A DNA stretch of 64,000 nucleotides from Thermovirga sp. (lineage in GTDB: Bacteria; Synergistota; Synergistia; Synergistales; Thermovirgaceae): positions 186,001 through 250,000 of the forward strand of contig NZ_JACDOB010000001.1 of the NCBI RefSeq assembly GCF_017656375.1, written 5' to 3'. The notes under the pieces are model-generated. The model was not told where the DNA came from and made no database searches. It saw only the letters and a program-made list of their open reading frames with translations. Below, one piece after another: positions 39,065 through 40,747 of the stretch (its first letter is position 1; each line of letters starts with the position of its first letter). Both the position numbers and the translations under genes were made by a program.

Positions 39065-40306
39065 TTAATTACTGCCACCTCCTACAACCTTGAGGAAAGC
39101 TGCCTTATCCGATTTTTCCTTATGGACACTTTTCCATGTTACAGCCGGCAGCCCCCATATGGTTATAAACCCTTTAGCTGCCTCATGATCAAATGCGTCC
39201 TTTTCGGAGTAAGAAGCTAAATCTTCTTGATAAAGGGATTCTTTAGCCTTAGTTCCAACCACTACCGCATTTCCCTTATATAGGCGCACGCGGGCCATAC
39301 CGTTCACGTATTTCTGGATGCTATCAAAGAAAGCATCAAGTGCCTCCCTTAAAGGCGAAAACCAATAGCCAACATACGCCAATTCAGCATATTTTAGTGA
39401 CAAATCCATCTTGGACATTATCACTTCTTTGGGCAGTGTCATAGACTCAACAGCCTGGTGTGCTTGCAGCAAAACTACTGTAGCTGGACATTCATAAACC
39501 TCCCTGCTCTTAAAGCCTACCAGCCTGTCCTCAATCATGTCGATGCGACCTACGCCATGTTTCCCAGCTATCTCGTTCAATTTCAAAATTAAGCTTACAC
39601 CATCCATCTCTTGTCCGTTGAGCGCAACAGGAACTCCATTTTTAAAACCAATTTCAACATATTCTGGATCATCAGGGGCATCCCAAGGATCAACAGTCAT
39701 GGTAAAAGCATCGCTTGGTGGCTCAACCCATGGATCTTCAAGTGGCCCACATTCGATGGACCTCCCCCATAAATTGGAATCTATAGAATAAGGGCTTTCT
39801 TTAGTTATAGGTATTGGAATATTATTAGCCTTTGCATAATCTATTTCAGCATCCCTGGAGAAATGCCAGTCCCTTACTGGAGCTATTACTTCTAAATCCG
39901 GGTTGAGCGCCTTAGAGCACACCTCTATCCTTACCTGATCCTGACCCTTCCCAGTGCAGCCATGGGCTACTGCTACAGCGCCTTCTATCTCTGCAATCCA
40001 CGCCAGATATTTAGCGATGAGAGGTCGAGAAAGAGCCGAATTCAACGGATACTTACCTTCGTAAAGTGCATTGGCTTTTAAAGCAGGCCACACCATAGTC
40101 TCAACAAATTCTTTCTTTAAATCCATGACATATGCGTTTACCGCTCCAACCTTAAAGGCTTTATCTTTCACCTCTTCTAAATCTATGTTTTGGCCTACAT
40201 CTGCTGTAAAAGTCACCACATCGTACCCTTGATCCTGAAGCCATTTGATAGCAACCGATGTGTCAAGACCTCCACTATACGCAAGAACTACTTTCCCTTT
40301 ATACAT
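39065..40306 (-). CDS. argG: argininosuccinate synthase
   Basis: A 413-residue enzyme condensing citrulline and aspartate with ATP. The N-terminal PP-loop is VVLAYSGGLDTSVA; HGCTGKGQDQVR and YSIDSNLWGRSIE are diagnostic. I chose the ATG at 40306 with GGGAGG 7 nt upstream. No argH is adjacent. Expression is under a T-box riboswitch and an arginine-rich leader frame (40343-40713), so the gene should respond to uncharged tRNA-Arg. Confidence 0.97.
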   Translation of the reverse strand: MYKGKVVLAYSGGLDTSVAIKWLQDQGYDVVTFTADVGQNIDLEEVKDKAFKVGAVNAYVMDLKKEFVETMVWPALKANALYEGKYPLNSALSRPLIAKYLAWIAEIEGAVAVAHGCTGKGQDQVRIEVCSKALNPDLEVIAPVRDWHFSRDAEIDYAKANNIPIPITKESPYSIDSNLWGRSIECGPLEDPWVEPPSDAFTMTVDPWDAPDDPEYVEIGFKNGVPVALNGQEMDGVSLILKLNEIAGKHGVGRIDMIEDRLVGFKSREVYECPATVVLLQAHQAVESMTLPKEVIMSKMDLSLKYAELAYVGYWFSPLREALDAFFDSIQKYVNGMARVRLYKGNAVVVGTKAKESLYQEDLASYSEKDAFDHEAAKGFITIWGLPAVTWKSVHKEKSDKAAFLKVVGGGSN

Positions 40307-40342: not shown

Positions 40343-40571
40343 AAAAAAAAGAGCCCGTCCCCTCAGGGACGAGCTCTTTTGCCCGCGGTACCACCCTTTT
40401 TGCCTTCTTGAGGCCCCTCACGGTCTCTTAAACCGTTTTGTCCCTACTTGGCCTAAGCCTTTCTTCGGGACCGGCTCCGGGGCTCTCTTCAGTTGGTTTC
40501 GCCAAGGAACGCTCTCAGCTTAAACATCCCCTCTCTGTTGACGAGCACCCAACCTACTCTTCCCCATCATC
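40343..40571 (-). promoter_or_regulatory. T-box riboswitch controlling argG
   Basis: On the minus strand the conserved T-box core GGGTGGTACCGCGG is at 40396-40383, followed by a terminator hairpin (GAGCTCGTCCC.../...GGGACGGGCTC, 40376-40351) and eight T's. Stem I starts near 40571: lower helix GGGG/CCCC (40565-40562 with 40482-40479), the AGTA of a loop-E motif opposite GAA (40490-40488), and an upper helix GGTTGG/CCAACT. AGAGAG and GCTG elements sit in the distal part. Using the usual placement (GAA, one base, codon, purine) the specifier reads AGA (40486-40484), arginine, which agrees with argG. The specifier assignment is inference; the T-box itself is certain. Confidence 0.93.
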
Positions 40572-40648
40572 ACCGCATATTCCGGCATAGATGTACGAGA
40601 GTACAGGCGTCTTATTCGTCTAGCTCGTCTTATTCGGTTCTGCCACAT
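40520..40648 (-). CDS. arginine-rich leader peptide upstream of and overlapping the argG T-box
   Basis: A 42-codon frame starting ATG at 40648 with GAGGAG 8 nt upstream, about 30 nt after the predicted transcription start. Eleven codons are arginine: 5 CGA, 7 AGA, 8 CGA, 10 AGA, 11 CGA, 13 AGA, 14 CGC, 18 CGT, 32 AGG, 36 CGT, 39 AGA. The peptide begins MWQNRIRRARRIRRLYSR. Its TAA stop (40522-40520) is inside stem I of the T-box. The arrangement recalls amino-acid attenuator leaders. A structural direct repeat CGAATAAGACG, twice, underlies part of the arginine run, so chance cannot be fully excluded. Confidence 0.65.
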   Translation of the reverse strand: MWQNRIRRARRIRRLYSRTSMPEYAVMMGKSRLGARQQRGDV

Positions 40649-40684
40649 AACCAGCGCTCCTCTTTGATCTCTAAGATTGCGAAC

Positions 40685-40713
40685 ATTATACTGTGGGGTT
40701 TTACAAAAGTCAA
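40685..40713 (-). promoter_or_regulatory. promoter of the argG leader
   Basis: On the minus strand TTGACT (40713-40708), a 17-nt spacer and consensus TATAAT (40690-40685). It lies just downstream of the surE stop, and the transcript would begin near 40678. This gives argG its own transcript with a leader of about 370 nt. Confidence 0.85.
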
Positions 40714-40747
40714 CAAAACACCCCGAAATTTTTATTCAAAAAAATCT

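Follow-up and report, generated by a model that had tools for sequence, protein, structure and literature searches.

A candidate translated arginine leader gating the T-box upstream of argG in Thermovirga and other Synergistota

We analyzed a stretch of 64,000 nt from Thermovirga sp., here called the window, in which the argG transcript appears to begin with a short Arg-rich leader frame that runs into an Arg-specifier T-box. We propose, with a probability of roughly 60%, that the two form a hybrid attenuator, in which the translated leader gates the T-box through an RNA switch that we call anti-stem I. At the level of sequence, comparison of homologous loci established a conserved frame, a distinctive codon choice, an Arg-specifier T-box, and a co-evolved complementarity between the leader and stem I of the T-box.

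The leader and T-box upstream of argG

All the features of the locus lie on the minus strand. A sigma-70-like promoter, read directly from the sequence (TTGACT-17-TATAAT, 40685..40713; TTGACT at 40713-40708 and TATAAT at 40690-40685), precedes a Shine-Dalgarno sequence, GAGGAG (40657..40662), located 8 nt 5' of the leader ATG at 40648. The leader ORF, MWQNRIRRARRIRRLYSRTSMPEYAVMMGKSRLGARQQRGDV (40520..40648), has 42 codons, 11 of them for Arg and 8 of these within the first 18, and the codons that we consider regulatory are codons 5-14 (40607..40636), which contain an AGA- and CGA-rich core, RRxRRxR. The ORF overlaps the 5' half of T-box stem I, in which its stop codon is found, about 140 nt before the terminator hairpin. 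The T-box (RF00230, 40362..40579) matched the covariance model over its full length (positions 1-219) with an E value of 4.7e-21 and 92.5 bits, half a bit under the curated Rfam cut-off of 93 bits. In the covariance-model alignment, stem I extends over 40479..40565, its base being formed by GGGG (40565-40562) with CCCC (40482-40479). Its specifier loop, ...CUGAAG-AGA-G-CCCC, reads AGA (Arg) at 40484..40486 by alignment to RF00230, a codon that agrees with argG as the regulated gene, and relatives carry AGA or CGC at the same place. The T-box sequence AGGGUGGUACCGCGG (40383..40397), read directly and supported by the covariance model, provides an antiterminator bulge UGGU, which is UGGC in several relatives and conforms to UGGN; it is followed by an intrinsic terminator, GAGCTCGTCCC/GGGACGGGCTC with a T tract (40343..40376, read directly), and by argG itself (argininosuccinate synthase, 39065..40306). 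An earlier sequence-only reading had described the promoter, the GAGGAG, the 42-codon frame with its 11 Arg codons, and the AGA-specifier T-box, all of which were confirmed. Tested for membership, the element came out as a T-box, with putative tRNA-Arg binding and antitermination, combined with a leader-peptide attenuator of predicted function.

The genome has tRNA-Arg genes with the anticodons UCU, UCG, CCU, CCG, and ACG, so that AGA is decoded by tRNA-Arg(UCU) and CGA by a tRNA of its own; the inosine tRNA that had been proposed for CGA is not needed, given the UCG anticodon. All five have G as discriminator, and the fourth pair between the UGGU bulge and tRNA-Arg(UCU) would thus be a G-U wobble. 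A tRNA-Sec gene was also predicted in the genome (G000:C3:48240). The genome contains only one other T-box (G000:C15:13676-13903), ahead of a threonine synthase-like gene and without a leader ORF. Just 5' of the -35 box, at 40727-40741 on the minus strand, we observed the ARG-box-like sequence TTGAATAAAAATTTC; we rejected it as an ARG box since a search of the window's genome found no ArgR family protein (PF01316).

With the ArgG of the window as a query, we fetched 80 Synergistota argG loci as named records, and a T-box search over 151 relatives added further T-boxes. The leader frame was present at 24 of the 80 loci (25 leaders with that of the window), every time together with a T-box; 7 loci carried a T-box without a leader, 48 had neither, and one was too short to be judged. 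Of 183 genomes of the order that were scanned with a DNA pattern, 19 contained the motif, one of them a congener, and the entries nearest to the window include a Thermovirgaceae genome. Both deep branches of an ArgG tree contain leader-bearing loci, and three changes account for the distribution of the leader, which fits an old origin with later losses. We found no Arg-rich frame at about a dozen parseable T-boxes ahead of genes other than argG (threonine synthase and others), a small number because the automatic parser missed many loci. Upstream of argG at three loci (L019, L025, L027), the promoter is followed by little beyond a terminator-like hairpin, apparently a remnant of a lost T-box, and at another (L022), the T-box carries a degenerate T-box sequence.

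Predicted pairing between the leader RNA and stem I

We folded leaders together with stem I, and the leader paired with the 5' strand of stem I at all 23 loci tested, with a mean of 44 expected pairs versus 14 for shuffled leaders. The base helix of stem I was lost in folds with a free leader, whereas it formed in nearly all loci once the leader was removed. In terms of interaction energy, and with p-values that are optimistic because the loci are related, leaders paired with their own stem I at -15.0 kcal/mol, compared with -10.6 kcal/mol when they were swapped between clades (p = 2.6e-4) and -10.0 kcal/mol when synonymous codons were permuted, keeping both the peptide and the codons (p = 9e-6), while in 14 T-boxes without a leader, where the pairing was absent, its mean z was +0.36, versus -3.1 in 12 leader-bearing loci (p = 8e-5, Mann-Whitney test). 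Random synonymous codons gave -6.3 kcal/mol and shuffles -5.5 kcal/mol.

In the window, the outer helix of this anti-stem I would join GACGAGC of the leader (40623..40629) with GCUCGUC (40546-40540), and inner helices, seen in the predicted fold and in the consensus folds of subgroups, would join 40590..40608 with the stem I 5' strand at 40568-40547. The pairing sequences differ from locus to locus, being AAGACC:GGUUUU and CUUCCC:GGGGAAG in L016 and CGAAUC:GAUUCG in L069. RNAalifold applied to all 17 leaders together mainly showed the outer helix, because the inner pairing differs between clades, whereas subgroups folded well: the consensus folds of three of them each contain a leader-stem I hairpin, with few strictly compensatory pairs (1/28, 2/21, and 1/32, respectively). 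We also considered the helix GACGAGC:GCUCGUC as the whole switch and rejected it, as the best helix scored 19.0 for own and 18.7 for cross pairings and showed no covariation. When the coding part alone was compared, the leader of the window was no better than swapped ones. The leader-stem I pairing was not significant at L073 and L082. At L077 and L081, and partly at L073, the complement of the stem I 5' strand is provided by the Shine-Dalgarno and start region of the leader, and not by its Arg codons; at L077 and L081, T-box folding and initiation on the leader may be in competition. From folding, leader RNA and stem I are predicted to be mutually exclusive, with complementarity and coevolution that are strong in most clades and weak in L073 and L082.

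A model ribosome was placed along the leader of the window. The base helix of stem I did not form while the A site was at codon 11 or earlier, reached 2.5 bp at codon 13 and then 4.2-4.6 bp, out of 4.7 bp, between codons 15 and 23, and was lost again from codon 25, where the ribosome lies inside stem I. The mean of 20 loci had the same shape and was weaker, with about 1.3 of the 4.4 pairs of the base helix regained under a stalled ribosome; hardly any were regained when the ribosome stood at the first Arg codons.

We infer ribosome stalling, an order of events, and a polarity as follows. The argG transcript would start with the translated leader, its Arg codons, mostly AGA and CGA, preceding the Arg T-box, and base-pairing of the leader RNA to the stem I 5' strand, together with the part that builds the specifier loop, would preclude stem I. 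Stem I would be off by default, both when the leader is unoccupied and when it is translated at full speed. With plentiful arginine, ribosomes would traverse the leader, enter the 5' portion of stem I, and then release; either the ribosome or the re-formed pairing with the leader would block stem I, and the terminator would form. With scarce arginine, a ribosome would stall on the later Arg codons and cover the leader strand, so that the freed stem I could be bound by uncharged tRNA-Arg(UCU), at the specifier and the antiterminator, and argG would be transcribed. Arginine shortage would then probably be sensed twice, by the stalled ribosome and by the uncharged tRNA. That both inputs act in the same direction had already been suggested by the sequence-only reading and is supported here, the predicted RNA switch being added as their coupling. 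We put the odds at slightly better than even that the element works as a two-key sensor and is the ancestral form of argG control in Synergistota. In such a sensor, the T-box could fold and test the charging of one Arg isoacceptor only after the stalling of a ribosome that reports on several of them, and codons sensitive to starvation would be confined to the leader and avoided in the enzyme.

A simpler version of this mechanism, to which we give a chance of somewhat less than one in five in view of the energies above, would have the leader translated and stalled on its Arg codons, with the coupling due only to the ribosome entering stem I and the complementarity functionless. Indeed, at 24 of the 25 loci the frame runs into stem I, which ribosomes would enter and break according to the earlier proposal, and Arg codons (GACGA) facing the conserved CUCGUC explain part of the complementarity; the best single helix shows no covariation (19.0 for own and 18.7 for cross pairings). 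However, permuting synonymous codons without changing the peptide costs a third of the interaction energy, and leaders swapped between clades do worse. Moreover, the leader frames of L016 and L163 end at the 5' edge of the T-box, so run-through of stem I is not universal and cannot be the full story, although a ribosome terminating at this edge would still cover the start of stem I; the earlier proposal is also incomplete in that the leader RNA itself is predicted to pair with stem I. In L009, L012, L013, and L014, the leader frame spans nearly all of stem I, ending in a UAG that shares nucleotides with the AGA specifier (AAGUAGAA).

Conservation and codon choice of the leader frame

An alignment of homologous argG leaders had been named beforehand as the test for an Arg-rich leader that is translated and joined to an Arg T-box, and its outcome is favorable: the frame, the ribosome binding site, and the run of Arg codons recur at the 24 other Synergistota leaders, with synonymous changes. 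More specifically, start codons vary among ATG, GTG, and TTG in the 25 leaders, with an SD-like sequence 5' of the start in relatives, and in 24 of them the leader frame meets no stop before the AG bulge of stem I, compared with 4 and 3 of the 25 for the two other frames. Arg codons are kept through exchanges of AGA for CGA or CGG and of CGA for CGC, CGT, or AGA, with a pN/pS of 0.42 in the core RRxRRxR and 0.74 over all 15 compared codons. Similarity of the frames (BLOSUM 1.23) exceeds that of column-permuted alignments (0.24 +/- 0.19) and was reached by 0 of 300 permutations. Arg is the sole strongly conserved residue of the leader, as expected if codons and not the peptide matter, and its distance to the T-box is nearly fixed. 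These comparisons indicate that the leader frame is not due to chance and that it is conserved as an Arg-rich short ORF.

Selection is limited to the N-terminal Arg run. The last three Arg codons of the window (..ARQQRGD), to which weight had been given before, fall in the T-box consensus sequence CUCGUCRACAGAGAGG, which is read in another frame in other species; the C-terminal part of the leader switches frame between lineages, for instance between L008 and L005.

The Arg codons of the leaders are AGA (41), CGA (45), CGC (10), CGT (7), CGG (5), and AGG (0), so that AGA and CGA make up 86 of 108 (80%). In argG of the window and 19 related loci, they make up 13 of 259 Arg codons (5%), versus 370 of 1580 (23%) in the neighboring genes of the same loci (Fisher p = 5e-14). 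The argG of the window, nearly free of AGA and CGA, has AGA at 0 of its 11 Arg codons, and expression level was rejected as the cause of this bias because, in the same genome, AGA accounts for 73 of the 242 Arg codons of the ribosomal protein operon. The scarcity of AGA and CGA in argG is a possible sign of selection for translation under arginine starvation, as a gene that avoids the codons of its leader would be translatable while arginine is short. Selective charging of isoacceptors would be expected to give such a pattern, with sensitive codons in the attenuator and insensitive ones in the enzyme; the theory and its experimental verification for Arg tRNAs have been summarized (PMC1183508). 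AGA-specifier leaders are rich in AGA and CGC-specifier leaders in CGA; we set this joint switching aside as evidence, since it is confounded with phylogeny and genomic codon usage.

These data also bear on whether the T-box alone regulates argG, the leader being translated for transcript protection or coupling and its Arg bias being sequence shared with the T-box, an explanation that we regard as improbable. The T-box does suffice in some lineages, as 7 argG T-boxes lack the leader; T-boxes kept without the frame had been named as the finding that would speak against a functional leader. In most of these loci, however, the leader segment is missing altogether and the promoter immediately precedes the T-box, a whole module having been lost rather than a frame having decayed. 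One of the leaderless loci (L018) has a strong intrinsic terminator hairpin (CCATAGTTCA...TGAACTATGG, then T7) between promoter and T-box, a putative upstream attenuator of a different kind. Against the T-box acting alone also stand the conservation of Arg as the only residue, and as the sensed amino acid, at a nearly fixed distance from the T-box and through synonymous switches, and a codon bias in the leader that is the reverse of that of argG.

Basic peptides can slow ribosomes, and the Arg clusters are conserved, so one could imagine the opposite logic, in which a basic nascent peptide arrests the ribosome at high arginine, like the fungal arginine attenuator peptide. We hold this to be quite unlikely, because the residues around the Arg run are not conserved, unlike those of known arrest peptides, and the choice of AGA and CGA points to codon reading and not to peptide chemistry. 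Finally, a chance, untranslated frame within the RNA element is hardly credible considering the Shine-Dalgarno sequence, the exchange of ATG, GTG, and TTG starts, and the frame-specific conservation.

Relation to known attenuators

The leader-gated T-box that we favor shares its stem I, AGA specifier, T-box sequence, and antiterminator/terminator with transcription-attenuating T-box leaders (RF00230). Unlike in other T-box leaders, an Arg-rich ORF precedes and overlaps it, and the RNA of this ORF is predicted to be able to sequester the 5' strand of stem I. With the trp, his, thr, and leu attenuators of Escherichia coli, it shares a short ORF that follows an SD and holds regulatory codons of the amino acid to be sensed, with a biased choice among them; in those leader-peptide attenuators, the ORF overlaps mutually exclusive RNA structures and particular codons are favored (PMC1183508). 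The difference is that the stalled ribosome would here free a second sensor, which needs uncharged tRNA, and not a plain antiterminator. T-boxes and leader-peptide attenuators are taught as alternative sensors of one signal, and at argG they are interleaved, such that the RNA encoding the peptide would be the switch that allows or prevents the action of the riboswitch. If the proposal is true, a directly tRNA-binding RNA can be placed under the control of translation, and the sensing of several Arg isoacceptors is combined with the sensing of one.

In Bacillus subtilis, rtpLP sits downstream of the T-box terminator and controls the translation of rtpA. The argG locus resembles it in that a T-box and a leader peptide, both tied to the same amino acid, would influence a single transcript in concert. 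Its layout did not match the rtpA type: the argG leader starts upstream of stem I, extends into it, and would control the T-box itself. The combination of T-box and leader peptide at rtpLP-rtpA (anti-TRAP) goes back to Chen and Yanofsky (2003, 2004), as cited in PMC11255114. A search of open-access full texts found no description of a leader-gated T-box, the closest tandem of this kind being that of rtpA. What appears to be new here is the complementarity of the leader RNA to the 5' strand of T-box stem I, which would add an explicit switch to the two-input idea. An Arg-sensing leader peptide is also described in Staphylococcus aureus, where rbfL, a short ORF with AGA/AGG codons, senses arginine by pausing (PMC13009471); unlike the argG leader, rbfL controls translation by covering the next ribosome binding site and works without a T-box.
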